Below are positions 7,668-56,147 of a DNA stretch of 64,000 nucleotides, one piece after another; position 1 is the first letter of the stretch, and each line of letters starts with the position of its first letter. The notes under the pieces are model-generated. The model did not search any database, was not told the DNA's origin, and saw only the letters and a program-made list of their open reading frames with translations. The position numbers and the translations under genes are program-made. The stretch is from a bacterium. GTDB lineage: Bacteria > Desulfobacterota > Desulfocorpusculales > Desulfocorpusculum. The stretch spans positions 62,001 to 126,000 of the forward strand of contig JBBFLE010000001.1 in the NCBI GenBank assembly GCA_037481695.1, read 5' to 3'.

Positions 7668-8744
7668 TTACCTCAACTTCAGGGTGCTTATGGCCAGCAA
7701 CCCAAGAAAAATGGAAAGAATCCAGAATCTTACTATGATCTTGGGTTCTGCCCAGCCCTTCATCTCAAAGTGATGGTGAATGGGGGCCATACGAAATATG
7801 CGCTTTCTTCTCAGCTTGAAGGAGGAGACCTGAAGGATCACCGAGAGGGCTTCCACAACGAATATGCCCCCCACGATGGCCAGCAGAATCTCATGCTTGG
7901 TAACCACGGCCACAGCCCCCAGGGCAGCTCCCAGGGACAGGGATCCCACATCCCCCATGAACACCTCGGCTGGGTAGGCGTTGAACCAAAGGAAACCCAT
8001 CCCCGCCCCCACCAGGGCACCGCACAAGACAGATAGTTCCCCCACACCAGCCACATAAGGGATTTGAAGGTACTGGGCTGTCTTGATGTTGCCACTGAGA
8101 TAAGAAAAAAGTAGATAGGTCCCCGCTGCTATGGTCACAGGGCCTATGGCAAGCCCGTCCAGCCCATCTGTGAGGTTCACGGCATTGGCGGCTCCCACTA
8201 TCACAAAAAGGGCGAAAGGTATGTAAAAGGCTCCCAGGTCAGGCTGGATCTCCTTGAAGAAAGGCACGCTCAGCTTGGTAGAGAAAGCAGGATAGTGAGC
8301 CAGAACCAGACCCGTGACTCCTGCGATGAGAAATTCCAGGACCAGTCTCAGCTTCCCGCTTAGGCCCTTGTGGCTTCTCTTTCTGACCACCCTGAGGTCA
8401 TCCAGGAAGCCTACTGCTCCAAATCCCAAGGTGGTCCAAAGAACCAACCAGATGTACACGTTTGTGAGATCAGCCCACAACAGTGTGGCTGTCACGGCCG
8501 ACAAGAGAATGAGCAGCCCCCCCATGGTGGGGGTACCTTCCTTGCTCAGGTGGGTGGCCGGTCCGTCAGGCCGAATTGACTGCCCGATGGAGAGCCTCCT
8601 GAGCTTATCTATTGCCCATGGCCCTACCAGCCAGCAAATGAGCAGGGCTGTAACAATGGCGTAGATGGTCCTGAAAGTTATGTATCTGAACACGTTGAAA
8701 AACGTGTTGTAGTCCACTAGAGAGTAAAGAAGATGATAGAGCAT
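7668..8744 (-). CDS. mraY: Phospho-N-acetylmuramoyl-pentapeptide-transferase MraY
   Basis: Integral membrane enzyme that transfers phospho-MurNAc-pentapeptide to undecaprenyl phosphate, forming lipid I. The 358 residues match the family norm of about 360, with around ten transmembrane helices. Signature loops are intact: GFLDDLRVV with the Mg-binding aspartates, [28 protein letters not shown], and [12 protein letters not shown] near the C-terminus. It begins three bases after the murF stop, consistent with co-translation. Confidence 0.97.
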
Positions 8745-8747
8745 GAT

Positions 8748-10178
8748 TCAGTCAGCCTCTGACAAGAAGCCCTTGAGGGCCTCCACTACTTTCTCCATGG
8801 CAGCAGCCCTGGATCCTTTTACCAGGATTCTGTCCCCAGGGAGCATCACATCCCGCAGGATCTCCCAAGCTTCCTCACAATTGCTGGCCATTAAAATGTG
8901 CATCTGTCCATCCCCGGCTGCATCATGGGCCCCCTGAGCGACCCAGGCAGCCCATTTCCCCACAGCCAAGAGCACCTTTACGCCCAGGCGGGCAGCTGTC
9001 TCCCCGAGCTCCCTGTGTGCACAGGGCGCCGCTGCTCCAAGCTCGCGCATATCTCCCAGCACTGCAACGGTTCTGCCTGAGCCTCCCTTGCAAAGAAGCT
9101 CCAGGGCCGCAGCCATGGAAACCGGGTTGGCATTATAGGTGTCGTCTATGAGAACACCCCCCCGGGACAGGTTCATGACCTTGAGCCTTCCTTCAAAGGC
9201 CGAAAAACCTTCCAGGGCATCCTTGATCTCATCCAGGGCCGCTCCCAGGACCCATGCAGCAGCAGAAGCGGCCAGGGCGGCCCTTACCATGGGCATCCCA
9301 GGGGTCTTCAAATGCAAATTGCAGGACTCTCCTGCCAGCTCTAGGCTCAATTCAGCTCCTGAGTCCCGAAAAGGCCTCACATCCACTGCCCTTACCGTGG
9401 CCCCTGGTGCAAAGCCAAAGCTCACCTTGTGGGCTTGACAGCCCCTGGCAAGCCGTACGATCCAGGAGTCATCCAGGTTCACCAGTGCCGTACCATCAGT
9501 GCCCAAGGCATGGAACAGCTCCCCCTTTTCCCTGGCCACACCTTCAAGGGAGCCCAGGCCTTCCAAGTGAGCAGGGGCCACCTGGGTTATCAGACCCAGT
9601 TGGGGACGGGCTATCTGACAGAGCCTTGCTATTTCTCCAGGCTCATTCATGCCCATCTCCAACACCACCGCCCTGTGATGCCGCCTGAGCCCCAAGAGTG
9701 TCAAAGGCAATCCTATGCGATTGTTCAGATTCCCCTTGTTCTTCAGTACAGTGCGGCTTCGCTCCAATATGGAGGCCAACATCTCCTTGGTGGTTGTCTT
9801 TCCATTGCTTCCTGTTATTCCCACCACAGGAGCTCCGTGGAGCTGCCTCCAAGTCCTGGCGATCTCCCCCAGGGCAAAAAGGGTGTCCTGCACCTCCACC
9901 AAGGCACATCTCGAGGCCTGGGGCCTGTGTATCAGTTCTCTTAGCCGCCCTTTTTCCATGAGGACCCCGCAGGCTCCCTTGGCCATTGCTGAAAGCGCAA
10001 AATCATGTCCGTCAAAACGCTCTCCCTTGAGGGCCACAAAAAGTTCCCCAGGCAGCAGAGTGCGGGTATCCGTGGAGATCCCAAGAGGTCTCATGGCAGG
10101 GTCTCCGGCCAAGAGGGTGCCTCCCGTGGCCTCCAGAATCTCCCCCAGGTTTAGAAACTCGTGTGGTGCAATACTCAT
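8748..10178 (-). CDS. murF: UDP-MurNAc-tripeptide--D-Ala-D-Ala ligase MurF
   Basis: Adds the D-Ala-D-Ala dipeptide, the last cytoplasmic step of the precursor pathway. The 476-residue protein has the N-terminal substrate-binding domain, ATP loop VGITGSNGKTTTKEML, the MGMNEPGEIARLC motif of MurF, DDTYNANPVSM at the start of the C-domain and AVLGDMRELG. The ATG start overlaps the murE stop as ATGA, implying translational coupling. Confidence 0.96.
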   Translation of the reverse strand: MSIAPHEFLNLGEILEATGGTLLAGDPAMRPLGISTDTRTLLPGELFVALKGERFDGHDFALSAMAKGACGVLMEKGRLRELIHRPQASRCALVEVQDTLFALGEIARTWRQLHGAPVVGITGSNGKTTTKEMLASILERSRTVLKNKGNLNNRIGLPLTLLGLRRHHRAVVLEMGMNEPGEIARLCQIARPQLGLITQVAPAHLEGLGSLEGVAREKGELFHALGTDGTALVNLDDSWIVRLARGCQAHKVSFGFAPGATVRAVDVRPFRDSGAELSLELAGESCNLHLKTPGMPMVRAALAASAAAWVLGAALDEIKDALEGFSAFEGRLKVMNLSRGGVLIDDTYNANPVSMAAALELLCKGGSGRTVAVLGDMRELGAAAPCAHRELGETAARLGVKVLLAVGKWAAWVAQGAHDAAGDGQMHILMASNCEEAWEILRDVMLPGDRILVKGSRAAAMEKVVEALKGFLSEAD

Positions 10179-11695
10179 GGGCCCTTTTCCAGCAAAGCTC
10201 TTCTGGCAACTTCCCTGTCGTCAAAGGGTATTCTTTTGTTGCCCAGAATCTGGTAATTCTCATGGCCTTTGCCTGCTATGAGCACCACATCTCCTGGGCA
10301 GGCATGCCCCACAGCCCACCTTATGGCCTCTTGCCTGTCCTCCAATATCGTGTAAGCAGGAACATCTATGCTCTGATGAGCATCTATCCTGCTCAGCCTT
10401 GTGCCTTGAAATCCCTTCACAATCTCTTGGATGATGGCCATGGGCTCCTCGTTTCTGGGGTTGTCGCTGGTGACAACTGCCAGATCGCAATGACGCGCAG
10501 CAGCCTGTGCCATCATGGGGCGCTTTCCACGATCCCTGTCACCGCCGCACCCGAAGACCACTATCAGCTTTGCGGAGGCCAGTTTTCTGGCAGTGGCCAG
10601 TGCTCTGTCCAGGGCATCGGGGGTGTGTGCATAGTCCACAAGCACAGTGAATCCAGAAGGCAAGTCGGGTCCATCAATCCGCTCCATCCGGCCAGGTACA
10701 GGCTTGAGCCTTCGTATCCCTTCTCGCCATTTCTCAGGTTCCACTCCCAGGGCCCACGCACATCCGCAGGCGGCCACCACGTTGAGCACGTTGGGCTCCC
10801 CAATCAAAGGGCTCTCCAGAGAGATCCTGCCTTCGGGGAAATCCAGGAGTATCCGACTGCCATCCCTACCCCCTTTCCATTCCAGGGCCTTCACATCCCC
10901 TTCACTTCCCAGCCCGTACCAAATGACCCTGGAGGAACACACCTGTGAGATCACAGGCGAGGCTGGATCATGCAGGTTTAAGAAGGCCCATCCCCCTTGG
11001 GATTCACTCTTTAGGTGCTCCTTGAAAAGGGTGGTCTTGGCCTCCAGGTAGGCCTCCATGCTTCCATGGTAGTCCAGATGATCCCTGGTAAGATTTGTGA
11101 AGATCCCCACCTGGAATCTGCAACCCAGCACCCTTTTCTGTTCCAGGGCATGGCTTGTGACCTCCATGACCACGTGGGAAATTCCCTGCCTGCTCATCTG
11201 GGCCAGGAGTCTTTGCAACTCAATGGAGTCGGGGGTGGTGTTGGAAGCTGGCAGAACATGGCCGCCCCATCTATAGGCGATGGTGCCCAAGACACCCACC
11301 TGGTGCCCCGCCGCCTCCAGAATAGCTTCCAAGACGTGGGCGGTTGTTGTCTTGCCATTGGTGCCGGTGATACCTATGAGCTTGAGGTGATTTGCAGGCT
11401 CACCGTAAAAACGGGCTGCCAGATGAGCCATGGCCCTCCTGCTGTCTGCAACTCGCAACTGTGTAAGCGTCTTGCACACGGGGTCTTGAAATCTTTCCAC
11501 TACCGCAGCCACCGCTCCTCTTTGGGCGGCCTCTTGCAGGTAATCATGACCGTCTTGGGCTGTGCCGGGCACTGCAACAAAAAGGTCACCTGGCTGGACC
11601 CTGCCCGAATGGGAAGCCAGTCCCTTTACCTCCACATCCAGATCCCCTCGCACCTCGAGGATCTCCGGCAACGTGGCCAGTTCGCGCAGCCTCAC
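10175..11695 (-). CDS. murE: UDP-MurNAc-L-Ala-D-Glu--meso-DAP ligase MurE
   Basis: Adds the third stem-peptide residue. About 506 residues with ATP loop GITGTNGKTTTAH and NLTRDHLDYHGSMEAY. The C-domain holds the DNPR-type motif (TSDNPRNEEP), which in characterised MurE enzymes marks meso-diaminopimelate specificity, so a Gram-negative A1-gamma peptidoglycan is inferred. The frame is open to an ATG at 11752. However, GTG at 11695 (VRLRELATL) has GGGAGGAA six bases upstream and matches the usual MurE N-terminus, so it is preferred. The ftsI gene ends at 11807. Confidence 0.94.
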   Translation of the reverse strand: MRLRELATLPEILEVRGDLDVEVKGLASHSGRVQPGDLFVAVPGTAQDGHDYLQEAAQRGAVAAVVERFQDPVCKTLTQLRVADSRRAMAHLAARFYGEPANHLKLIGITGTNGKTTTAHVLEAILEAAGHQVGVLGTIAYRWGGHVLPASNTTPDSIELQRLLAQMSRQGISHVVMEVTSHALEQKRVLGCRFQVGIFTNLTRDHLDYHGSMEAYLEAKTTLFKEHLKSESQGGWAFLNLHDPASPVISQVCSSRVIWYGLGSEGDVKALEWKGGRDGSRILLDFPEGRISLESPLIGEPNVLNVVAACGCAWALGVEPEKWREGIRRLKPVPGRMERIDGPDLPSGFTVLVDYAHTPDALDRALATARKLASAKLIVVFGCGGDRDRGKRPMMAQAAARHCDLAVVTSDNPRNEEPMAIIQEIVKGFQGTRLSRIDAHQSIDVPAYTILEDRQEAIRWAVGHACPGDVVLIAGKGHENYQILGNKRIPFDDREVARRALLEKGP

Positions 11696-43826: not shown

Positions 43827-44393
43827 CTACGGGGTTTTCATATCAAGATTTCTCCCTTGAACCCCGGCCACCCTCCCAAGCAATGCCTTTGTTGCAAGGC
43901 TCAGGTATCTCAATTGGCACTGTTCCACAGCCTCGGCCAGGGAGTCAGCCAGAGATCTCAGATGCTCCCGAATAAACTCCATGCTGGCCCTGGCCGCTGT
44001 GTGTGCCTGTTTTGGATCTCCCAAGGCCTGTTTGAGCCTGAGATAGGCTACGAAGTCGGTCATGACCGCCACATGATCCGGAGGCTCCTTCAGCGAGGGG
44101 CTATAGGCAAAGGCCTCATAAAATCCTTTCAGTTGGGCCAGCATCTTCCCCGGCACCATTCCAGGGCCATGGCCCACTGCCCTGGGGCTCAGCATCCCGC
44201 CCGGGCCCAAAAGGGTATGGTAGAGCGCCTCATCCCCTTCCTGACAGGCTGCTATGGCAGCATTCTTGAGCTGCTGGTCTTGCACCTCAGAGGCCAAGGC
44301 AGTTATCTCCTTTTTCCAGCCCTTTTCCGGAGGAGTAAAAAGCAGGCTTATGAGACGCCACTCGGTGGCTTCCCGAAGGAGTTCTCTGTTCAT
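43827..44393 (-). CDS. TorD/DmsD-family molybdoenzyme chaperone
   Basis: All-helical protein of 188 residues. The TorD-family pattern is visible: an N-terminal helix (NRELLREATEWRLISLLFTPP), FYEAFAYSPSLKEPPDHVAVMTDF in the middle, and MEFIREHLRSLADSLAE. Such chaperones bind the Tat signal of a molybdopterin enzyme and help cofactor insertion before export. Its place directly after the gamma subunit supports service to the 46450-49896 catalytic subunit. ATG 44393 is preferred over an upstream GTG at 44402. Confidence 0.85.
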   Translation of the reverse strand: MNRELLREATEWRLISLLFTPPEKGWKKEITALASEVQDQQLKNAAIAACQEGDEALYHTLLGPGGMLSPRAVGHGPGMVPGKMLAQLKGFYEAFAYSPSLKEPPDHVAVMTDFVAYLRLKQALGDPKQAHTAARASMEFIREHLRSLADSLAEAVEQCQLRYLSLATKALLGRVAGVQGRNLDMKTP

Positions 44394-44423
44394 CCTAAGC
44401 ACACCTTTCAGACTTGCTGGATT

Positions 44424-45308
44424 TCACCTGGATGGGGCTTTGGCTTCCCGCAAGGGTATCCATCCGGTGCGCATTTTTCTGCCTCCAGCCTCTCCCTGAG
44501 CCCCATCCCAGATGGCTAGGGCAACATAGCGGCTCTTGGGAATATCCCTGCTCAGAACCACGCTCCATCCTTTCGGGGTGTGTCTTCCCAGGCCGTAAGA
44601 GCCAAAACCCCTGCCTGGGCTCACGGTGCCTGGGCCTTGGGCAACATATTCTTCCACCGGCATGGCCCTGGGCCCTGCCCTGTTGTTTCCCAGTGCCCGT
44701 GCAGGAAGGTATAGGCTCTCCATCTCCTTTTGCATGCCTGGATCTCTTTTCAAGGGGGGGGCCTGGTATGGGTAATGGTCCACCCAGGCGTTGGGGTACA
44801 GGGCCTGCAGCTCGTCTTTTCTTCCCTGGCTGAGGGCCTGCCAGGCTGCATTCCAGAAAAGAATTTCCACTGGTTTGCCCGGCTCACCCATCTGAGGTGC
44901 AGGAAGGGTGGCTCCTGCTTCCATGGGCACCTGCAAGGCGCAGGCATCCAGGAATCTACCGGGACCTGGAAGCTCGTCTCTCGTGGGGTCTTGCCACTGA
45001 AGCCTGAAGGCCACCAGTTTTCCATCCTCCAGTGCCCTGACACGCACCTCGGTGGTGGTTTCCTTCAACTGGCGGGGCTCCACAATGTCCTGCAGCAGAA
45101 GCTTTCCCACATACTCAGGGGCCCTTTGCCATGCGGGATCCTCAGGTTGGGATGGCACCTGCTCCACCCTGAGCATGAGTATCTCGGGGCTGGGAGCTTG
45201 AGGCTTTTGCCGACAACCGGCCCCAGCAGCCAAACCCATTACAAGGAAAAGAAAGGGTACCTTCCAGACTCCCTGTCTCACAATATGAATCATTCTTGAG
45301 CAGCTCAT
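44424..45308 (-). CDS. Haem-b-binding gamma subunit of type II DMSO-reductase-family enzyme (lipoprotein)
   Basis: 294 residues of the ethylbenzene-dehydrogenase-related haem-binding domain family. An N-terminal signal ends in a lipobox (LAAGAGC, Cys about 32), so an outer-leaflet membrane anchor in the periplasm is predicted. Seen: VRALEDGKLVAFRLQWQDPT, RFLDACALQVPMEAG, and the C-terminal GWSVVLSRDIP and VALAIWDGAQGEAGGRKMR, which match the domain that ligates haem b in EbdC/DdhC-type subunits. It would pass electrons from the beta subunit to a cytochrome. ATG 45308 has AGAGGTG upstream. Most such subunits are soluble, so the lipid anchor is notable. Confidence 0.83.
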   Translation of the reverse strand: MSCSRMIHIVRQGVWKVPFLFLVMGLAAGAGCRQKPQAPSPEILMLRVEQVPSQPEDPAWQRAPEYVGKLLLQDIVEPRQLKETTTEVRVRALEDGKLVAFRLQWQDPTRDELPGPGRFLDACALQVPMEAGATLPAPQMGEPGKPVEILFWNAAWQALSQGRKDELQALYPNAWVDHYPYQAPPLKRDPGMQKEMESLYLPARALGNNRAGPRAMPVEEYVAQGPGTVSPGRGFGSYGLGRHTPKGWSVVLSRDIPKSRYVALAIWDGAQGEAGGRKMRTGWIPLREAKAPSR

Positions 45309-45319
45309 GTTCACCTCTT

Positions 45320-46447
45320 TCAGGGGCAGTTCACCCTGGCTATCCCATACTTCTCGTCAAAGGCAGGCCTGATGTACACTGGCTCCTTGATGGGAACCCG
45401 GACTATCTCCTGCCCTTGCTCCGAGGCTCCCACCACAGTTTTCCCTCGTCGTCTCCATCGAGCCACGATCCTCTCGGTACAGCCCAAAAGACAAAGCAAT
45501 GCCTGCAGATCCGGATCCTCATGGGCTTGGGCGTAGGTCTTGAGGGCATCTTCCACCCCAGGGCCGAACATCTGTCTCAAGAAGTTAATGGGCACATGCA
45601 CCGGTGGGATATAGTACACATTGGGCTCAAGCCCGAACTGGGGGAAAAGGGGCTTGGCAACCTTCTTAATGTGGACCAGGAAGTCTATGGGATTTTCGTG
45701 ATCGGCCTGAGAAGGCGGATTGATCCATCCGGCCAGACGGATCTTTCCAATGCAGTTTAGGAAGCACTGCGGCTGGAGCCCCTGTTCCAACTTGGGATAG
45801 CATCCTATGCACTTCTCACTGGTCCCTCCAAGGGGGTTGAAAAAGGTCTTTTTGTAAGGACATGCCCGCACACACTCCTGGTATCCGTGACATCGACTCT
45901 GATCTATGAGGACTATCCCATCTTCCTGCCTCTTGTAGATGGAACCCCTGGGGCAAGCGGCCAGGCATGCCGGGAAGGTGCAATGATTGCAGATGCGAGC
46001 CAGATAGAAAAACCAGGCCATGTGCGGGACATGAAGCCCCAGGCCCCTGTCCACCATGCCTGCGCAGTCATCCTCACCCACATTGGGATAGGCATAATCC
46101 CTTTCCTGGGGTTGCCATCCCATAACGCGGGTTGCGGTGGGGGCTGCCTCGAAGATCGTCTGACCCACGTAGCGGTTTCCCACCCACCTCTGGGTCCCCA
46201 TCATCTGCAACAGCTTCAGATCCCAGGCAAGGGGATAGAAGCCGTACGGCTTGGACTCCACATTGTTCCAGAGCATGTACTCCTGGCCCTTGCCCGAAGT
46301 CCACGTGGTCTTGCAGGCAAGGGTGCAAGTCTGACATCCAATACATTTGTTGATGTCAAATACCGCTGCAAACTGTCTGCGGGGCCTTTTTTCAGGATAC
46401 CAGTAGGCCATTTCCCGTTGGATCTGCCAATTGTTGACCCTAGCCAT
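45320..46447 (-). CDS. Fe-S beta subunit of type II DMSO-reductase-family enzyme (NarH/NxrB/EbdB-like)
   Basis: 375 residues with four ferredoxin-type cysteine groups: [11 protein letters not shown] (35-45), [26 protein letters not shown] and [16 protein letters not shown]...C. In the third group a tyrosine stands where a cysteine would be, the NarH-like pattern associated with a 3Fe-4S cluster. The segment [20 protein letters not shown] is characteristic of this family. No signal of its own; it should be co-exported with the Tat-bearing alpha subunit. AGGAGG precedes ATG 46447. Two bases separate it from the alpha gene. Confidence 0.93.
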
Positions 46448-46449
46448 GA

Positions 46450-49400
46450 TCAGGCCTCCTCATCCCCCTGCACGAAGTTGCCGGAGAGGTATCTCTTCAT
46501 CTCATCCGACTCGTAACCAGGCCTTATCCCCATCTTTGCGGGCTGCCAAATTCCTTGGGCGCCTATACCCCCAGGCTCGGCCTTGCTGATTTTCACCATG
46601 GCTTCCCTGGGAGCACCCACAGGACAATGCACGTCAGGCAGGAAGCCTTTACCCAAAGACTGACCGAAAAGACCCTTGCGCACCAGGGAGTCTGTCATGA
46701 GGGTGGGTTTCAGCCATCCCCTGGTGGCCGACTGGTGGGAGCCGCTACGGAACATTCCCTGATAGCCCGTGCGAGGGTTCTTGGCCAGCCCGTCGGGACG
46801 GCTTCTTTGTCCCTCCAGGGATCCTGGGGTAGCGCCGTACATGTTAAACCACATCCTGGTTACCCCACGGGGGGTGCCTGGATAGTACCTGGCCCTGCAA
46901 AGCAACCTGGCAAACTCGTAGTCCCCCTGATTCTTCTCCCATCCCCTGAAGGGCCTGTCCTCTGGATCCGGATCCACCCAGACATAGTCACCATCCTGGA
47001 TGCCCAGGTCTTTTGCATCCTGGGGGTTCATGTCCACGTACCCCTCAGTCACAAAAGGAGAGCGTTTGTCCTCTCTGTGCAAGTCTCCAAAGGGCCCAAA
47101 CAGCATTGCCACCATGTCCGTGTCTATGGGAGTGGTGTGAGCACCGTGACGGTACTTGGGCGTGTGGAATATGAATCTGAAGCCTTTGTCAGCAAGAGGG
47201 TGAGCCGAGGCTTTCAACTCCCTCCAGGTCTTGACCACATTTCTTGCACAGCGGACCTCTGATGAGAGATCATCGGGCTGCACTCCGTATTGCTCTGGCC
47301 TGGAGCAGCGGATGGCTTCATGGGGAGGGGCCACTATCACGTTGGGCTCGTAGAAGGTGGAGTCCACGGGCTCCCTGTGTACTGGCAGATTCTCCCCGGC
47401 CTCTATGAACTCCTGCTCCTCACGATAGAACTCCAGCCTTCCGCTCTTGGTGTACCAGGGCCTGGAATCCGTCACCTGCTCGTACCCGACGGCCTTGGGG
47501 GTGGTGCGGCTGTTCATCAAGGCAGGAATACCTTCCTTGGCCCTGGCCTCCAGCTCCTCCATCCTGTACCCCCTGGTGTTGGTGGAGTTATCCAGTATTC
47601 TTTGCAGGTATGCTGCCGTGTTCCCCTGCCTGACGAAGCTCCAGTACTGGTTGAATCTATCATCCCCGGTCAACCCGGCCAGCTTCTCGGCCACCAGAGC
47701 CAGGACCTCTATGTCTCCCAGAGTATCGAAGACCCGTGGGAGCGCAGTGCGGGGAAAGACCTGCAGGAAGGGGTTGGTGACCGAGGCGGTGAGGTCAGGG
47801 TGCTTCAATTCAGCCCATGAGTCCACCCCGAAGACCACATCGGCCCACTCGCAGGAGGCTGTCCACCACCATTCGTTGACCGCGATCATTTCTATTCGTG
47901 GAAGCACGTTGACCACCGTGTTGTAGTGCCACTTCACGTTTCCCAGGATGGAATTGGCATTGGCAAACCACATGGCCTTGGTGGGACAGGGCATGTGGGT
48001 CCTGCCTGTGAGCATCTTGCGGCCCACCCGAAGAGGGTGATCTTCATGGTTGTAATAATGGGCAGACTCGGGTTTCCAGTACTGACGGACCCGAGCAGGC
48101 TTGGATGGGTCCAGCTGGATGTCAAAGGGGTCCTCATTTATGTACTGAGGAGCCCCATTGAAAAGCGCCACCCGGTAGTTGCCTGCATAGCTTCCCACAT
48201 TGCCCCCGATCCTGCCTATGTTGCCTGTGAGGGCGGCCAGAAGGAAAACGGCCCTGTCCTTGTTGTCGCTGTTGAAGAATTGATTGGGGCCCATACCCAA
48301 AGCAAACAGGGTGGTGCCTGGTTCCTTGGAGATGTGACGAGCCAGCTCTTCCACCTCTGCGGCCGGAGCCCAGGTCAGCTCCTCAGTGGTTCTGGGATCG
48401 AAATGTTCCACGTACTGTCTTATCAGATCAAATATTGGCCGGCATCTGATCTTGCTTCCGTCGGCCAACCTCACCTCCACCGAACCCTCCAGAAGAGGAT
48501 CCTCCAGGGGCGATCTTTTGCCCACTTGGTCCCTGGTCAAGGGTCTTGGCGCGCCCGCTGACCTGTCCCACCATACATAGTCCCCCCACTCCTGCCTTAG
48601 TTCCTGGGAGATCAACATGTCCGTCTGAGCCGCTGGAGAGGGTTCCTTTTCCCCTGGTGCCAGGACCCTGGTTTGGTTTGACAGAGGGGAGGGTGCAATG
48701 CCAAAGACATCTTGAGCCTTCAAGGTCTTGAGGGTGTCCATGCGCACAAGCAATGGAAGATCGGTCCATTCCTTGACATATTGCTGGTCCCAGAGTTTCT
48801 CCTTTAAGATCACATGGCAAAGCCCCAGGGCCAGGGCCGCGGTGGTGCCTGGACGTACAACTATCACCTGATCCCCTTTGCTGGCTGTGGCAGAGTATTC
48901 GCAGGCTATGACCACCACCTTGGCCCCTTGCACTCTGGCCTCGGTGAGCCAGTGGGCATCGGGCATCTTGGTGGTGATCCAGTTCATGCCCCAAACCAGG
49001 ATTGTCTTGGAGTGCTCCACAGCACTCAGGTCAAATTCCACGGTCTGCTGGCCTGTCACCATGGGATGGCCGGGAGGCAGGTCTGTGTGCCAGGAATAGT
49101 TGTCGAACCCTCGGGCACCCAAAGCCCGCATAGGATCCACCCCTCTTATCTTCTGATCCAATAGGGCCAGGGAATTGGCAAAACGATAGAATCCAAAGAC
49201 CCTGGTGATGCCCAGAAGGGGCATTCCCCCTCTGAACTTGAGGCACTGGGTGCCTGCCCCATCCATGGCAGCGATGACCTCCTGGTCGTAGTTCTGGGCC
49301 TTCAACAGGGCTGCACCCTGATCCCCCGAATAGGTCTCGGCTATGTTCTTGAGGGCAGCAGCCACCATACTGGCTGCCTGATCATGGCTTATGCGGACCC

Positions 49401-49896
49401 ACTCGTCCCGACCTCTGTTGAAAAAAATCTTGGGCGGCAGCCCGTTGGCCTCTCTTGGGAAACCGGCCTCCACCCAGCGCTTGAATCCGACTCTCACCAT
49501 ACAACCGCTGATGCGGCGGTCCCCGTAGATTCTCCTTGTGAGGGCAAGCCCCTTCTGGCAGATCCTGGGATCCCACCTGTGGGAGACCTGGTTGCCCATC
49601 AGATCCTGGGCTTCGCCATATCGCATGGTGGGCCCGATGCGCACCAGCACCCCGTTTCGGACATAGCCGTTGAGAAGACAATTGTGAGTGTCGTTGGGGG
49701 CGCAAAGAAAGGTGAACTTCCAGTCATATTTCCAAAGATCACGATAGGCCTTTTCCCAACCCCTCTGAGGATATACTGCCAGAGGATTGGTGATGGCCTC
49801 CAGGCCCCAGGCCTTAATGGCTGATAAAGCAAAGGCCCCGAACCCGGCTGCGCTCAAACTGCCAAGAAACTCTCTCCTGGAAAATCCTTTTTTCAT
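46450..49896 (-). CDS. Molybdopterin catalytic (alpha) subunit, type II DMSO reductase family
   Basis: 1148-residue Mo-bisMGD oxidoreductase with a twin-arginine signal ([18 protein letters not shown]), so the enzyme acts in the periplasm. The proximal Fe-S motif is CAPNDTHNC (65-73) with a further cysteine at 113 (RICQKG); Asp69 occupies the position of a usual cysteine. The Mo-ligand aspartate is predicted at Asp272 in [14 protein letters not shown], defining the type II group (nitrate reductase, nitrite oxidoreductase, ethylbenzene dehydrogenase, perchlorate/selenate reductase, DMS dehydrogenase). [20 protein letters not shown] and the C-terminal molybdopterin-binding [14 protein letters not shown] fit. 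The substrate is not deducible; the start motif resembles Nxr/archaeal pNar-type proteins more than NarG. Confidence 0.93.
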
Positions 49897-49959
49897 GGCT
49901 CGCTCCCTTATGCCACCCCTTTTGAGCTCTCTGGGGCAAGAGGATCAGGGGCCAAAGGA

Positions 49960-51648
49960 TTATTTCCCCTCTGGTGAGGCTGCCCCTTGCCCAGAACTGG
50001 CTTCCCACGTTCTTATGTAGCTGACTATGGCTTCTATCTCTGTTGAGGAAAGGGCCGGATGGGTGGCCTTGGGTTTGGCAAAGCCCTCCATCACGGTTCT
50101 CATCCGGCCCCTGCTTATGGTCTCGAAAAGATAAGTGTCGCTTGCTGCCAAGACTCCGGGGTTGTTGAGAGCCACCGCAAATTTGCCCTCTCCATTGGCC
50201 CCATGACAACCCGCGCAGTACGCGGCAAAGAGCTTGCCGCCAGCCTTCACGTCCCCCGAGGCCCACCGTCTGGGCTCATCCACCCCAGGTGGGGGGCTCA
50301 CTTTGCCTCCCAAGGTGCGCAGGTAAGCCACCACTTCCTTTATCTCGGCCTCCCTCAGCCCTCCTTCCTTCTCCCCCCAGGCCGGCATTCTGCGACCGGG
50401 GCGCCCGTGGGTAAGGGTCTGAATCAGGAATCTATCAGAAGCCAGGGCAAGAAAATCGGGATTTCCCACAGATGGGAAAAGGCTCATCCCTGGGTAGTGC
50501 CTGCCCTCTCCTTTCATGCCATGGCAGGCGGCGCAAAAGGTCCCATAAAGGGTGGCACCGTCTGTGGCAAACTCCCTCTCCCCAAGCCTCTCGGCCCTCA
50601 CCCTGTCCTTGGGCCAGTACGCCTCGGGCACATTGCTCCTGCGCAAGGAAAAGATGTACATGGTGAGCTGATCGATCTGCTCTTCGCTGAGCCCCATGGC
50701 GGGCATTGCAGAGCCTGGCACCACCCTGGGGGGATCCCTCAGGTGCTCTTTGTGCCAGTTCTCAAGGCTCTGCTCACCCCTTACTGCTGAGAAGTCTGTC
50801 CTGCCAGGATCCCGCTCGCCCGCCTTGGTAAGCTCCGGGCCATCGTCCCCTCCCACGCCGTTTACCTTGTGACAACCCCTGCAACCTAAAGAGTGAAAAA
50901 GAGCCTTGGCCTCCACCAGCCCCGGAGCCCCGACCCTGGAGTCCATGTAAACCTTGAGCTGTTCTCTGGAAACCTGGTCAATGGGACCAAAGGTCTCTCT
51001 CCAGAGCAGCTCCCCTGCTCGAGCCCTGTCCAGGTGTTTCTCGTACCAGTCTTGGTCATAACCTGTGGCTCCCACCCTCGAAAGATCCGGACCCTCCATT
51101 CCGTGCATACCCCCCACCCGAAGGGTACCGCCCCTGGAGTCCACCCTATGGCAGGCCAGACAGTCCAGTCTCTCCAATGCCCTTTTTCCCTGCTCCAGTA
51201 TCTGGCTGTTGGGAACCCTGAGGCTGGTATGACAGCTGCCGCAGCCCGAGTAAGAGTACTTCGTGGGGATCATGGGAAGCGGCCAGAACCTTACATTCCC
51301 ATGGGCGTCCGCCTCCTCAGTGGCATGGCCCTGGCCAGCATGGCAAACGGTGCAACCCAATTCCCCTGGATCGTGTACAACCTGCTTATGGGGCAAGGCC
51401 ACCTTGGGGCCCACCAGGGGAGCTTCACCAGGTGCCATGCCCACGTGGCAGCTCACGCACCGATCCACCACCCGAAGGCCCGGAACCACGATCTGCCGCA
51501 GCCTGATCTCTAAGGGACCGCTTTCACTGGTCACTGAGGCCTGGATGAGCCTCCAGGGTTTGAAGAGGCTTTCCTTGGCAGCAGCCGCAAGAAGAAGCCC
51601 CAGACAGGCAAGGCTGGAAAACAAGACCAGGTATTTGTTCTTTTTCAT
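49960..51648 (-). CDS. Periplasmic seven-haem cytochrome c
   Basis: 562 residues with an N-terminal signal anchor (LVLFSSLACLGLLLAAAA) and seven CXXCH motifs: CVSCH, CTVCH, CGSCH, CLACH, CRGCH, CAACH and CAGCH. The first four are clustered (about 64-175) in a compact multihaem region; the last three sit in separate class I cytochrome c-like domains (for example CAACHGMKGEG, CAGCHGANGEG) with downstream methionine candidates. It probably moves electrons between the Rieske/cytochrome b complex and the molybdoenzyme. It lies between cytochrome b (50 bases) and the alpha subunit (63 bases). Confidence 0.92.
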   Translation of the reverse strand: MKKNKYLVLFSSLACLGLLLAAAAKESLFKPWRLIQASVTSESGPLEIRLRQIVVPGLRVVDRCVSCHVGMAPGEAPLVGPKVALPHKQVVHDPGELGCTVCHAGQGHATEEADAHGNVRFWPLPMIPTKYSYSGCGSCHTSLRVPNSQILEQGKRALERLDCLACHRVDSRGGTLRVGGMHGMEGPDLSRVGATGYDQDWYEKHLDRARAGELLWRETFGPIDQVSREQLKVYMDSRVGAPGLVEAKALFHSLGCRGCHKVNGVGGDDGPELTKAGERDPGRTDFSAVRGEQSLENWHKEHLRDPPRVVPGSAMPAMGLSEEQIDQLTMYIFSLRRSNVPEAYWPKDRVRAERLGEREFATDGATLYGTFCAACHGMKGEGRHYPGMSLFPSVGNPDFLALASDRFLIQTLTHGRPGRRMPAWGEKEGGLREAEIKEVVAYLRTLGGKVSPPPGVDEPRRWASGDVKAGGKLFAAYCAGCHGANGEGKFAVALNNPGVLAASDTYLFETISRGRMRTVMEGFAKPKATHPALSSTEIEAIVSYIRTWEASSGQGAASPEGK

Positions 51649-51698
51649 TTCCTTGAGCCTCTTGGGAACCTGTTGAAATCAGCTCCCTCTTGTGCTTC

Positions 51699-53252
51699 TC
51701 AGTGCATGGGCCACTGGGAAGGAGACCAGTAGAATTCCCAGTTGGGGCCTCTGAAATAGGCCCCTATGATGGTCAGGACCACGTATCCGCAAAGAAAGCA
51801 GGTGAAAAGGGCCATGGCCCCGGCCCTGGTGGAGTTGAAACGTCTCACCACCCACACCGAATAGAGGGCGTAGATTCCGGTTATCAGGGTGCCTGGGTTA
51901 AACAGAGTCACAGCCAGTTGATGGATCTGGGGAAACCACTCCCTAAGCCAACCCTGGGAGATCGCCAGGGCCTCCACGGCCGAGACTGCCACTAGACCGA
52001 ACACGGCCGATTCCACCACCAGCCTGGGTCCCCCTGGCCCCCCGAACCAGAGTGCTGTGCCCTCCTGTTCCCTTTCCAGATAAGGAATCAGCCCCAAGCC
52101 CGCCACCACTATGGCCGGGATGCCTATACCGCCCATGAAGGCAGAGAAGGAGACCAGCTCCTGCAAACCCAAGAAATACCAGGGGGCCTTGGCTGGATTT
52201 TCAGGCACACTGGGATTGGCCAGCTCCTTCAAAGGGGCGTCCATCCAAAGCGACAACCCCACGCAAATGAGCGTGGTGAGCATGAACACAGCCAGCTCCG
52301 CGTAAAAGAGATGAGGCATGCTGGGGAGGGTGTTCTCGGGTCCATTGCCCACTGCTGGAGTCTTCCCTTTTAGCAAAGCCACCAACTGGTAGGTCTTCTG
52401 TGGAGCCTGGGTGAAAACCGGGTAAGTGCTTGGCCCCAAGGCACCCAGTCTCTGATCCACATCCCAGGGCCGTGCCAGCCCTCCATCCTTTCTGACTCTC
52501 CAGAAATGAACTCCCATGAGAATACCGACAGCCATTGGGAGAACCATGACATGGAGCACGTAGAACCTTATGAGGGCTTCCTCTCCCACCACATCCGAGC
52601 CCAAGAGCAGCTCCCTCTGGATTCCTCCTATGTCAAAAAACTCTGTGATGCCCAGGGCATCGGTCACCTCCCTGGGAGATTGAGCCACATTGGCTCCTAT
52701 GGTGGTGGCCCAGTACGCCAGCTGGTCCCATGGGAGCAGATATCCGGTGTAGGAAAGACCCAGGGTCAGTATCAGAAGCCCCATGCCCACCAGCCAGTTG
52801 AACTCCCTGGGGCTTCGGTATGCTGCGGTGTAAAACACCCTTGCCATGTGAAGGAAAACCCCCACAACCATCAGATTGGCCGCCCAGCGATGAATGTTTC
52901 GAATGAATTGGCCTGTGGGAACCACGAAGTGGATGTCCTTTATGGACTGGTATGCCACCTCTGGGTAGGGCTTGTAATAGAACATCAGCAGTATCCCGGT
53001 AAGCAGGGTTATGAAAAAGCATGCCGCACACACAAGCCCCAGACCCCAGGTGGTACTCCAGCGCAAGCTCCACCTGTGGGTTCGGGCCGGATGGAGGTGA
53101 AGGAAGAGATTCTCGAAAACAAATGAGGAGCGAGACCTGTCGGTGGTGGGCAGCCCCGTGCGTATGGCGCTTTCCACCACCAGCCTGGGCACAGCCTTGA
53201 GATTCGTGAGAAACACTCCAAGGGCCGGACTCTGTTGCTGGCCACTCATCAT
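51699..53252 (-). CDS. Cytochrome b of a Rieske/cytochrome b complex (b6f-type spacing)
   Basis: 517-residue polytopic quinol oxidoreductase subunit. Haem histidines pair as IHRWAANLMVVGVFLH (13 residues between) and HVMVLPMAVGILMGVH (14 between). The second spacing is that of the b6f rather than the bc1 group. The cytochrome b and subunit IV parts are in one chain; the usual PEWY Qo motif reads APWYFLGLQELVSF, with Glu replaced by Pro-Trp context. A long hydrophobic C-terminus (about 420-517) adds further helices. Its start overlaps the Rieske stop (ATGA), as expected for a coupled complex. Confidence 0.93.
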   Translation of the reverse strand: MMSGQQQSPALGVFLTNLKAVPRLVVESAIRTGLPTTDRSRSSFVFENLFLHLHPARTHRWSLRWSTTWGLGLVCAACFFITLLTGILLMFYYKPYPEVAYQSIKDIHFVVPTGQFIRNIHRWAANLMVVGVFLHMARVFYTAAYRSPREFNWLVGMGLLILTLGLSYTGYLLPWDQLAYWATTIGANVAQSPREVTDALGITEFFDIGGIQRELLLGSDVVGEEALIRFYVLHVMVLPMAVGILMGVHFWRVRKDGGLARPWDVDQRLGALGPSTYPVFTQAPQKTYQLVALLKGKTPAVGNGPENTLPSMPHLFYAELAVFMLTTLICVGLSLWMDAPLKELANPSVPENPAKAPWYFLGLQELVSFSAFMGGIGIPAIVVAGLGLIPYLEREQEGTALWFGGPGGPRLVVESAVFGLVAVSAVEALAISQGWLREWFPQIHQLAVTLFNPGTLITGIYALYSVWVVRRFNSTRAGAMALFTCFLCGYVVLTIIGAYFRGPNWEFYWSPSQWPMH

Positions 53253-53734
53253 GCCCTCCAGTAAGTTCCCTGGGGTACAGTGGAGCCTTGGTCCACCACA
53301 TAGCTGCCGTTACTGCCTGTGAGTTTCAACCAGGCAAGGGGCTTTGGGGCCGGGCCTTTTGTTACAGCTCCGTCCTGCCCGAAGAAAGACCCATGGCAGG
53401 GGCACTCGAAGCCTTCTCCCGAAGGCTTCACAACGCAACCCAGATGAGTGCACACCAGGGACAAGGCGTACACCCCGTCCCCTGTCCTGTAGAGCGCTAC
53501 GGCCCGTCCTGGAGGGATGAAAGGGGTCCCCAGGGGAAGGGACTCAGGAAGCCTCACCTTGAATTTCTTGCTGGGAGAAGGCATGACTGCGGGCCTGGGA
53601 AGCCGAAGCATTCCAATGAGCCCGAATCCCAAGGCTGAAGCGGCAGCAAGAAGAGAGGCCAGCCCGAGAAAGTCGCGTCTGACAACTGGCTCCGGCTCTA
53701 GTCTGGATCTCTCAGTCGATGATGTGGCTCTCAT
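53249..53734 (-). CDS. Rieske 2Fe-2S protein
   Basis: 161-residue Rieske subunit. A twin-arginine motif (VRRDFLGLASLLAAASALG) acts as the anchor and Tat signal. The 2Fe-2S ligands are CTHLGC and CPCHGS, with the proline-rich loop GPAPKPLAWL after them. It carries electrons from the quinol site of cytochrome b to a periplasmic acceptor, here presumably the seven-haem cytochrome. GGAGG five bases before ATG 53734. The stop overlaps cytochrome b. Upstream of it lies a 7-bp repeat array. Confidence 0.94.
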   Translation of the reverse strand: MRATSSTERSRLEPEPVVRRDFLGLASLLAAASALGFGLIGMLRLPRPAVMPSPSKKFKVRLPESLPLGTPFIPPGRAVALYRTGDGVYALSLVCTHLGCVVKPSGEGFECPCHGSFFGQDGAVTKGPAPKPLAWLKLTGSNGSYVVDQGSTVPQGTYWRA

Positions 53735-53838
53735 GTATGCCTCCTGCCTGTGGTTTCACCCTGTATCATTCACAGATCCTGGCTTGTTCCGTCTCATCCA
53801 GAATGTGCTATCAGGTCATCCAATACCCCTGCTCGGTA

Positions 53839-54186
53839 TTGCCTTTGCCTTTAACTCCGTGCTCCGTGCTGCTTTTGCCTTTAACTCTGTGCTCTGTGCC
53901 GTGTGCTGCTTCATCCCGCTCTGTGCCCTGTGCTCTGTGCTGCTTCTCCCCGCTCCGTGCCCTGTGCTGCCTTTCCCTTTGACTCTGTGCTCTGTGCCCT
54001 GTGCCCTGTGCTGCTTTTGCCTTTGACTCTGTGCTCTGTGCCCTGTGCTGCCTTTCCCTTTGACTCTGTGCTCTGTGCCCTGTACTGCTTTTGCCTTTAA
54101 CTCTGTGCTCTGTGCTCTGTGCCCTGTGCTGCTTCATCCCGCTCTGTGCCCTGTGCTCTGTGCTGCTTTTCCCCGCTCTGTGCTCC
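53839..54186. repeat. Composite tandem repeat of degenerate heptamers (YCTGTGC-type)
   Basis: About ten units in tandem. Each has a linker, then two to four 7-base copies of CTCTGTG/CCCTGTG, then CTGC. Two linker classes alternate irregularly: a 12-base one (TTTTGCCTTTRA or CTTTCCCTTTGA) and a 9-base one (TTCATCCCG or TTYTCCCCG). Unit lengths are 37, 34, 27, 44, 37, 37, 44 and 34 (53873 to 54166), so within a class they differ by exactly 7 bases. The two 34-base units (53910 and 54133) are identical. The array overlaps the last 17 codons of the upstream oxidoreductase gene. Confidence 0.9.
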
Positions 54187-56053
54187 AATTGCTCTGCAGG
54201 GTGACCCTCTCCATGGTAATGGCCCCCACAGGGCAGCGTCTGGCGCAGCAGGCGCATCTGATGCAACGATCCTCGTCTTTGAGGATGGCGCAATCCCATG
54301 GACCATCCACGCCAGGTAGATCTATCTCCAGATGGGTCAACTCCACCAGTTTCAAACAACTTGTGGGGCACACATCCACACAACCCCCACAAAGCAAGCA
54401 TCTGGAGGAGTCGAATATGGGAGTCACCCCGCAGTCCAGGCACCTGGAGGCCTCCAGCATTGCCTGTGACCTTGTGTATCCAAGCTCCACCTGAATGTCC
54501 GGCCTTTGAAGCCTTTGGTCCGGCTCCAGGAGTTGGACAGGCACACGGGCCTTGGCCTCGTACCCACGTTCCCTCTGGTAGCGGGGAATGGTTATGTAAG
54601 ATGTGGTCTGCTCCAGGCTGATCTGCCTGCCCGTGATGTACCTGTACACCGAGCGGGCCACGGCCTTGCCAGAAGCCACAGCGTCTATGAGAAGCCTGGT
54701 GCCATGGGCGATGTCCCCTGCGGCAAAGACCCCGGGGGCAGCGGTGGACAGAGTATCTTTGTCCACCTTTAGAAACCCTGGCTTCACAAGCCCCACCTCT
54801 TTTTCCCAGCCCTGGAGGAAGGAAAGATTGGGCGCCTGGCCCACGGCCAAAAGCACCGTGTCGCAGGAAATGGTCATGCGCATGGAGTCATCGAAAACAG
54901 GGGCGAATCTTCTCTGTTCGTCGTACACTCGGTGGCATTTGCGAAACTCTACCCCTTTGACCGCCCCACCCCCATCCCGTAGGATCCGAACTGGCCCCCA
55001 TCCATTTATCCTCTGGATGCCCTCTTGATCCCCTTCCAGTATCTCGGAGGTGTCTGCAGGCATCTCTTCCAATGTCTCCAGGGATACCAGCCTGACCTTC
55101 CCCATGCCCGGCATGCGGGCCGCGGTGCGGGCCGTGTCGTACGCGATCTGCCTGAGCACTGTCCTTGCCACGTCGTAGGCCACATTGCCTCCACCCACTA
55201 CCACCACTTCCCTGCCCACCTCCAGGGGCAGACCCAAAGCAACTGACCTAAGAAGATCCACCCCACCGTAGACCCCCGGCCCCGATTCCCCCTCCAGCCC
55301 CAGCCTCCTGGAGCCCTTGGCACCCACGGCTATGATCACTGCAGGGAAGTCCTTGCGCAGTTGAGCAAAGGAGACATGCTGCCCAACCATGACACCTGTT
55401 TGGATCTCCACTCCCAGTGCCCTTATGACATCTATCTCGCGGGTGATGATCTGCCTGGGAAGCCTGTAGCTGGGAACACCCACTGCCAGCATTCCACCCA
55501 CCACGGACTCACTTTCCAAGACCAAGGGCCGAAATCCCATCAAAGCCAGATCATGGGCTGCTGACAGACCTGCCGGCCCTCCCCCTATTATTGCCACCTG
55601 CTCTCCAGAGGCAGGCTTGAAGGCCCCCTGGACACCGCTTCGAAGCAGAGCTGCCATCTCTTCTGCATCCATGAAAAAACCAGGCTGGTATTGCCGCAGC
55701 CTGGATAGAAGCTCCTCAACAGGCCGAGCCTCTGGGCCGGCCTGTTCGCAGGCGAATCTTTTCAGGGAACGGATGGCCACAGGCTTGTCATATCCCACAA
55801 GGCTACCATGCTCATCCCATCGGGGCAGCTTGCCCCTGCGGCAGGCCGCCTCGCAGGGAGCTGCGCAGATGCGGCCGCAGATGGAGGCAAAGGGATTTGG
55901 TCCTCTTGCAATCAGGTAAGCATCCTCGAATCTGCCTTCTGCAATGGCCCTGATGTATCCCCTGGCGTCAGTGTGCACAGGGCAGGCCTCTTTGCACGGG
56001 ACAAGGAGGCTGTGGTATGTCTGGTCAGGAAGCAGGGCGGAGAGTCTCAGCAT
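54134..56053 (-). CDS. GltD-like FAD/NAD(P) oxidoreductase with two 4Fe-4S C-terminal clusters
   Basis: About 639 residues. The N-terminal alpha-helical Fe-S domain (PCKEACPVHTDARGYIRAIA, CGRICAAPCEAACRRG) is that of glutamate-synthase small subunits. FAD-binding IIGGGPAGLSAAHDLALMG and NAD(P)-binding VVVVGGGNVAYDVARTV follow, then AAGDIAHGTRLLIDAVASGK. A C-terminal ferredoxin domain has CLLCGGCVDVCP and CIRCACCARRCP. It should link NAD(P)H and low-potential Fe-S electrons to the Rieske/cytochrome b genes downstream. ATG 56053 follows AAAGGGGGG; an ATG at 56134 is also in frame. The last 17 residues (STERGKAAQ...) come from the repeat array and are probably not native. Confidence 0.9.
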   Translation of the reverse strand: MLRLSALLPDQTYHSLLVPCKEACPVHTDARGYIRAIAEGRFEDAYLIARGPNPFASICGRICAAPCEAACRRGKLPRWDEHGSLVGYDKPVAIRSLKRFACEQAGPEARPVEELLSRLRQYQPGFFMDAEEMAALLRSGVQGAFKPASGEQVAIIGGGPAGLSAAHDLALMGFRPLVLESESVVGGMLAVGVPSYRLPRQIITREIDVIRALGVEIQTGVMVGQHVSFAQLRKDFPAVIIAVGAKGSRRLGLEGESGPGVYGGVDLLRSVALGLPLEVGREVVVVGGGNVAYDVARTVLRQIAYDTARTAARMPGMGKVRLVSLETLEEMPADTSEILEGDQEGIQRINGWGPVRILRDGGGAVKGVEFRKCHRVYDEQRRFAPVFDDSMRMTISCDTVLLAVGQAPNLSFLQGWEKEVGLVKPGFLKVDKDTLSTAAPGVFAAGDIAHGTRLLIDAVASGKAVARSVYRYITGRQISLEQTTSYITIPRYQRERGYEAKARVPVQLLEPDQRLQRPDIQVELGYTRSQAMLEASRCLDCGVTPIFDSSRCLLCGGCVDVCPTSCLKLVELTHLEIDLPGVDGPWDCAILKDEDRCIRCACCARRCPVGAITMERVTLQSNWSTERGKAAQSTGHRAG

Positions 56054-56133
56054 GAGCCTTTTCCCCCCTTTGGAGGTTTTCCGTGGTTTCCTGTCTCTGA
56101 GTGGAAGTCTATTGAAGCCATGGGAAAAGCCCA

Positions 56134-56147
56134 TTGACTTAAGTCAA
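56134..56147. promoter_or_regulatory. FNR/ANR-like palindrome upstream of the redox operon
   Basis: TTGACTTAAGTCAA is a perfect 14-base palindrome of the form TTGAC-N4-GTCAA. Known CRP/FNR-family sites are TTGAT-N4-ATCAA (FNR) with TTGAC variants for ANR/FixK-type regulators. It is 80 bases upstream of the oxidoreductase ATG at 56053 and 280 bases past the alkylsulfatase stop. No good -10 is visible next to it, so position relative to the start site is unknown. Anaerobic or redox control is an inference. Confidence 0.55.

Follow-up and report, generated by a model that had tools for sequence, protein, structure and literature searches.

The best-described relative of the locus studied here is the nitrite oxidoreductase of Kuenenia stuttgartiensis (NXR-ABC, PDB 7b04), and the crystal structure of its α subunit, KsNXR-A, contains an FS0 of the 3Cys/1Asp type in which Asp71 coordinates the cluster (PMC8387239). 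NXR enzymes run in both directions in vitro, Asp or His ligands influence the potential of [4Fe-4S] clusters, and a tubule-forming NXR-T subunit has been reported for anammox bacteria (PMC8387239). The E. coli nitrate reductase NarGHI likewise belongs to the type II Mo-bisMGD enzymes and has the same five Fe-S clusters in a chain, but its FS0 is held by His/Cys/Cys/Cys and the enzyme is cytoplasmic, with the membrane subunit NarI. According to work cited in PMC8301774, a His-to-Cys mutation abolished NarGHI activity. Haloarchaeal NarG also has a His/Cys/Cys/Cys FS0 (PMC8301774), and a 2021 paper describes the FS0 histidine as one that subfamily II seems to conserve without exception (PMC8840923). 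According to the same paper, EPR shows FS0 as an S=3/2 species in NarGHI but did not reveal it in EbDH, DmsABC or SerABC.

Two further systems bear on the genes that accompany such an enzyme. The positive-side nitrate reductases of haloarchaea and Methanoperedens combine a Tat-exported NarG with a periplasmic b-type cytochrome protein, and a Rieske/cytochrome b complex is their likely electron donor (PMC4683180). According to work cited in PMC4683180, haloarchaea co-encode Rieske/cytochrome b and nitrate reductase, and the reaction is inhibited by antimycin A. In Kuenenia, a Rieske protein, cytochrome b and multihaem cytochrome c also occur together with a putative FAD/NAD(P) Fe-S oxidoreductase, in the Rieske/cytochrome b complexes Kustd1480-1485 and Kuste4569-4574; it has been proposed that these complexes reduce NAD(P)+ through quinol bifurcation (PMC12954380).

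In the window, by which we mean the whole 64,000-nucleotide stretch of bacterial DNA analysed, positions 43827-56134 hold eight co-oriented genes that encode, in order, an FAD oxidoreductase, a Rieske protein, cytochrome b, a seven-haem cytochrome c, the α, β and γ subunits of an NXR-like enzyme and a NarJ-type chaperone (Table 1). The locus shares with Kuenenia NXR-ABC its three subunits, the 3Cys/1Asp positions of FS0, the Asp ligand of Mo, the substrate-site Asn and the Met/Lys ligands of haem b. It differs in that the α subunits are about 38-39% identical and in that the genes sit beside those for the Rieske protein, cytochrome b, cytochrome c and FAD oxidoreductase.

Table 1. Genes, motif and selected codons of the NXR-type locus (window coordinates).
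Feature	Position	Strand	Basis
NXR-type Mo-bisMGD catalytic subunit (α/NxrA-like), 1148 aa	46450..49896	-	best solved relative 7b04_B NXR-A, E 7.7e-262
CAPNDTHNC motif, residues 65-73: predicted FS0 ligands Cys65, Asp69, Cys73 and substrate-site Asn68	49678..49704	-	alignment to KsNXR-A
Cys65 codon	49702-49704	-	
Asn68 codon	49693-49695	-	
Asp69 codon (GAC)	49690-49692	-	
Cys73 codon	49678-49680	-	
Cys113 codon, predicted fourth FS0 ligand	49558-49560	-	aligns with KsNXR-A Cys115
Asp272, counterpart of KsNXR-A Mo ligand Asp275	49081..49083	-	alignment to 7b04_B
β subunit (NxrB/NarH-like, four Fe-S clusters), 375 aa	45320..46447	-	7b04_A NXR-B, E 1.5e-107, nearly full length
γ subunit (ethylbenzene-dehydrogenase-γ/NXR-C-like, haem b), 296 aa	44424..45314	-	7b04_C, E 5.5e-13; Pfam EB_dh 2.4e-16
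NarJ/TorD-type assembly chaperone, 191 aa	43827..44402	-	Pfam Nitrate_red_del 2.8e-8
Cytochrome c, seven CxxCH motifs, 562 aa	49960..51648	-	Pfam Cytochrom_C 2.6e-38; CxxCH count
Cytochrome b of Rieske/cytochrome b complex, 517 aa	51699..53252	-	Pfam Cytochrome_B 2.4e-36
Rieske [2Fe-2S] protein, 161 aa	53249..53734	-	Pfam Rieske 1.5e-11
GltD-like FAD/NAD(P) and 4Fe-4S oxidoreductase, 666 aa	54134..56134	-	NCBIfam NF009410 7.5e-118, below cut-off

An earlier note on this DNA had read the motif CAPNDTHNC in the Mo subunit, with a later cysteine at residue 113, and had placed Cys65 at the His position of NarG and Asp69 at its first Cys position. Both readings are borne out, the one by the 1148-aa open reading frame and the other by an ungapped alignment to KsNXR-A (7b04_B), in which Cys65, Asp69, Cys73 and Cys113 fall on Cys67, Asp71, Cys75 and Cys115 with a constant offset of +2 and Asn68 falls on Asn70. 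The interval that the note had given, 49585-49705, covers residues 65-73, but the Cys113 codon lies just below it. We looked in the NXR-A alignment and in a 41-member alignment for cluster cysteines elsewhere and for an Asp69 displaced from the ligand position, and found neither; Cys65, Asn68, Asp69, Cys73, Cys113 and Asp272 are invariant across the 41 members. We reject an error of sequencing or a decaying gene as the source of the motif, since it is kept in more than 80 loci.

Because the residues align with those of a crystal structure, we consider it very probable that Asp69 is a ligand of FS0; on this comparison it is a ligand and not a damaged site. An AlphaFold model of α built from the 41-row alignment (mean pLDDT 82.8, pTM 0.86) is metal-free and is not the basis of this assignment. 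Its best structural match is 7b04 (TM 0.89/0.91), with PcrA, EbdA and NarG behind, so that it clearly resembles type II members, and confidence is low in some stretches, among them residues 271-276 at the Mo site. In some ferredoxins, replacement of Cys by Asp yields a labile-iron or [3Fe-4S] site, and by that precedent FS0 might be a [3Fe-4S] cluster held by the three cysteines with Asp69 uninvolved. We regard this as highly improbable, given that the crystal structure of Kuenenia NXR-A shows Asp71, the counterpart of Asp69, as a ligand of the cluster (PMC8387239) and that all four ligand positions are invariant across the clade (41-member alignment). The 3Cys/1Asp arrangement is real but not new: it has been published, with a crystal structure, for the homologous Kuenenia enzyme, and the motif is thus an ordinary one for the family.

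The other features of the subunits point to the same class. The N-terminus of α carries, by inspection, a twin-arginine motif (SRREFLG) and a hydrophobic stretch that together suggest a Tat export signal, and γ Met142 and Lys280, counted along the alignment to 7b04_C, correspond to Met155 and Lys305, which bind the haem there. The locus thus shows each of the NXR sequence features for which it was examined: the FS0 pattern Cys-x3-Asp-x3-Cys...Cys, an Asp ligand of Mo with the substrate Asn, an α-β-γ set with Met/Lys in γ, and a Tat motif. The NarG pattern His-x3-Cys-x3-Cys...Cys is absent, its first two positions being occupied by Cys and Asp, and α scores 136.2 against the curated NCBIfam narG model TIGR01580 (cut-off 1084.15). 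We are confident that the gene encodes the α subunit of a periplasmic NXR-type nitrate/nitrite oxidoreductase whose FS0 is predicted to be a [4Fe-4S] cluster ligated by Cys65, Asp69, Cys73 and Cys113, and nitrate/nitrite is the likely substrate couple. For the subclade to which α belongs (57-77% identity within it, ~40% to characterised NXR), we found no biochemistry.

Type II molybdoenzymes vary widely in substrate, and this α could in principle belong to one that acts on chlorate, selenate or a hydrocarbon and merely resembles NXR. Consistent with such a reading, the NCBIfam type II models match α below their cut-offs; even its best NCBIfam match, TIGR03479 (DMSO reductase family type II), gives 309.2 against a cut-off of 984.75. 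Another substrate nonetheless seems improbable to us, as α, β and γ are all homologous to NXR and α retains the substrate-site Asn, which is Ile in ethylbenzene dehydrogenase (PMC8387239).

The earlier note had also suggested that the Asp motif may mark a lineage and that it recurs in nitrite-oxidoreductase-type relatives, as it does in Kuenenia NXR-A with its Asp71. When bacterial and archaeal genomes were scanned, at least 80 named loci were recovered whose α is 57-77% identical to that of the window; those listed span Acidobacteriota, Planctomycetota, Myxococcota, Pseudomonadota (Thioploca, Parabeggiatoa and Thiomargarita), Chloroflexota, Bacteroidota, Omnitrophota and other phyla. Among the matches listed, CAPNDTHNC or a near variant occurs in 86 ORFs. 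Reading the aligned columns at positions 65/69/73/113 in 148 type II rows, nine of them gapped or partial there, gave Cys/Asp/Cys/Cys in 87, His/Cys/Cys/Cys in 35 and four Cys in 17 of the 139 readable rows, the window protein being counted twice in the first class. His and Asp occur together in none of these 139 Mo-subunit rows. An apparent HDSxFxFxC in a few loci, picked up by regular expression, traced to an earlier His and vanished when the aligned columns were read.

In a tree of 38 hand-chosen representatives, the Asp class forms one side of a single branch (support 100/99) that is present in 100% of bootstrap trees. The His class likewise lies on one side of a single branch (99/97), and the four-Cys class is split; the tree is midpoint-rooted and does not give the order of events. 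Asp ligation, as predicted from these sequences, has the pattern of a trait that arose once and marks a lineage present in many phyla, in keeping with what the note had suggested. Its mention of archaeal-type relatives holds in part: haloarchaeal NarG proper is of the His/Cys/Cys/Cys type (PMC8301774), but a haloarchaeal NXR-like copy exists on Natronococcus occultus plasmid 2 (about 7841-11394), where an unannotated α gene, frameshifted in the record, is 48% identical and reads CTPNDTHNC. Genes for a β subunit and a chaperone follow this frameshifted α. The 2021 statement of an apparently complete conservation of the FS0 His (PMC8840923) does not hold for the sequences aligned here. Type II Mo subunits with a four-Cys FS0 (CAGNCTQAC, CSPNCTGAC and CHPNCTQSC; nine loci) are found in both halves of the midpoint-rooted tree.

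We propose that the single oxygen ligand provided by Asp69 would substitute at FS0 for the single imidazole ligand of NarG. The lack of any row with both His and Asp fits the idea that one non-thiolate ligand suffices, and the existence of natural four-Cys members implies that no non-thiolate ligand is strictly required. By analogy, an effect of Asp on the potential of FS0 is plausible; the literature consulted yielded no value for the potential of an Asp-ligated FS0. Since FS0 in the sampled type II subunits has one His, one Asp or neither, and never both, redox tuning could be tested across natural classes.

The upstream genes suggest where the electrons of this enzyme come from. An FAD oxidoreductase, a Rieske protein, cytochrome b and a multihaem cytochrome c occur together, the gene content of an NAD(P)-linked Rieske/cytochrome b complex, and the set resembles the anammox complexes of this type, here apparently joined to an NXR. 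Whereas the two Kuenenia complexes are described without NXR subunits, the window set is contiguous with the αβγ genes. The 517-aa cytochrome b also matches NCBIfam ExtP (1.4e-73) and ExtQ (9.6e-20), both under the curated cut-off. The four genes upstream of α keep their order in 36 of the 80 listed named loci, across several phyla and mainly in relatives at least about 63% identical; of the other 44, 22 extend 5.7 kb or more beyond α on the upstream side and do not show the set, and the remaining 22 end too early for a judgement. We found no published description of the eight-gene cluster in the open literature, which does not prove that there is none. The FAD oxidoreductase and Rieske genes are separated by 399 bases, most of them occupied by a degenerate tandem-repeat array (53840-54170; periods 7, 22, 37 and 74) that also encodes the C-terminal residues of the FAD oxidoreductase. 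In one relative these two genes are nearly adjacent.

Based on the Kuenenia enzyme, electrons would be exchanged among Mo, FS0, FS1-FS4 of β and haem b of γ, and gene order suggests that the seven-haem cytochrome c and the Rieske/cytochrome b complex, whose genes lie upstream, would be the next carriers in either direction. In the direction that we favor, the Rieske/cytochrome b unit would oxidise quinol and electrons would travel through cytochrome c, γ, β and FS0 to Mo, for a net transfer from quinol to nitrate, and the nitrite formed would be handed to NrfA. Such a periplasmic quinol-linked nitrate reductase would parallel the haloarchaeal and Methanoperedens enzymes, with the differences that haloarchaeal NarG uses His at FS0 (PMC8301774) and that the homology of α to these enzymes is distant.

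Because the genome encodes NrfA, nitrate reduction is probably the net direction. The opposite assignment, a physiological nitrite oxidoreductase that feeds electrons through cytochrome c to an oxidase, draws on the fact that the closest characterised relative is an NXR and on a cbb3-like oxidase subunit in the genome. We think it less likely: the same genome has NrfA, quinol-type NO reductase-like proteins and DsrAB, the Rieske/cytochrome b genes directly upstream suit quinol oxidation, and Beggiatoaceae carry relatives of the enzyme and reduce nitrate (PMC6052272). For the favored nitrate reductase, we infer both the direction and the coupling to NAD(P). More speculatively, and with considerable doubt, the eight genes might form one quinol-bifurcating module, in which a Rieske branch would feed the seven-haem cytochrome c and NXR-type nitrate reduction with its Asp-ligated FS0, and a low-potential branch would deliver electrons through the FAD/Fe-S oxidoreductase to NAD(P)+. 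If so, this would be a horizontally spread nitrate-respiring machine found in Acidobacteriota, Planctomycetota, Myxococcota and this deltaproteobacterial lineage.

In an rpoB tree of 24 rows with weak deep support, the genome groups with its family relative among same-phylum and deltaproteobacterial rows; one archaeal-labelled row forms a very long branch. Besides DsrAB-like proteins and the cbb3-like oxidase subunit, the genome encodes an NrfA-like protein with a CxxCK haem site (CLSCK) and two long COX1-family proteins, which in length and sequence resemble quinol NO reductases. The α gene is absent from two family relatives, one of them only 80% complete, and its nearest neighbour in the 38-representative tree is an Acidobacteriota protein with 76% identity; for these reasons the window copy was probably acquired horizontally. 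Elsewhere in the same genome (C10:16852-18126), a molybdopterin oxidoreductase frame of 907 aa contains one in-frame TGA and is possibly a selenocysteine formate dehydrogenase.
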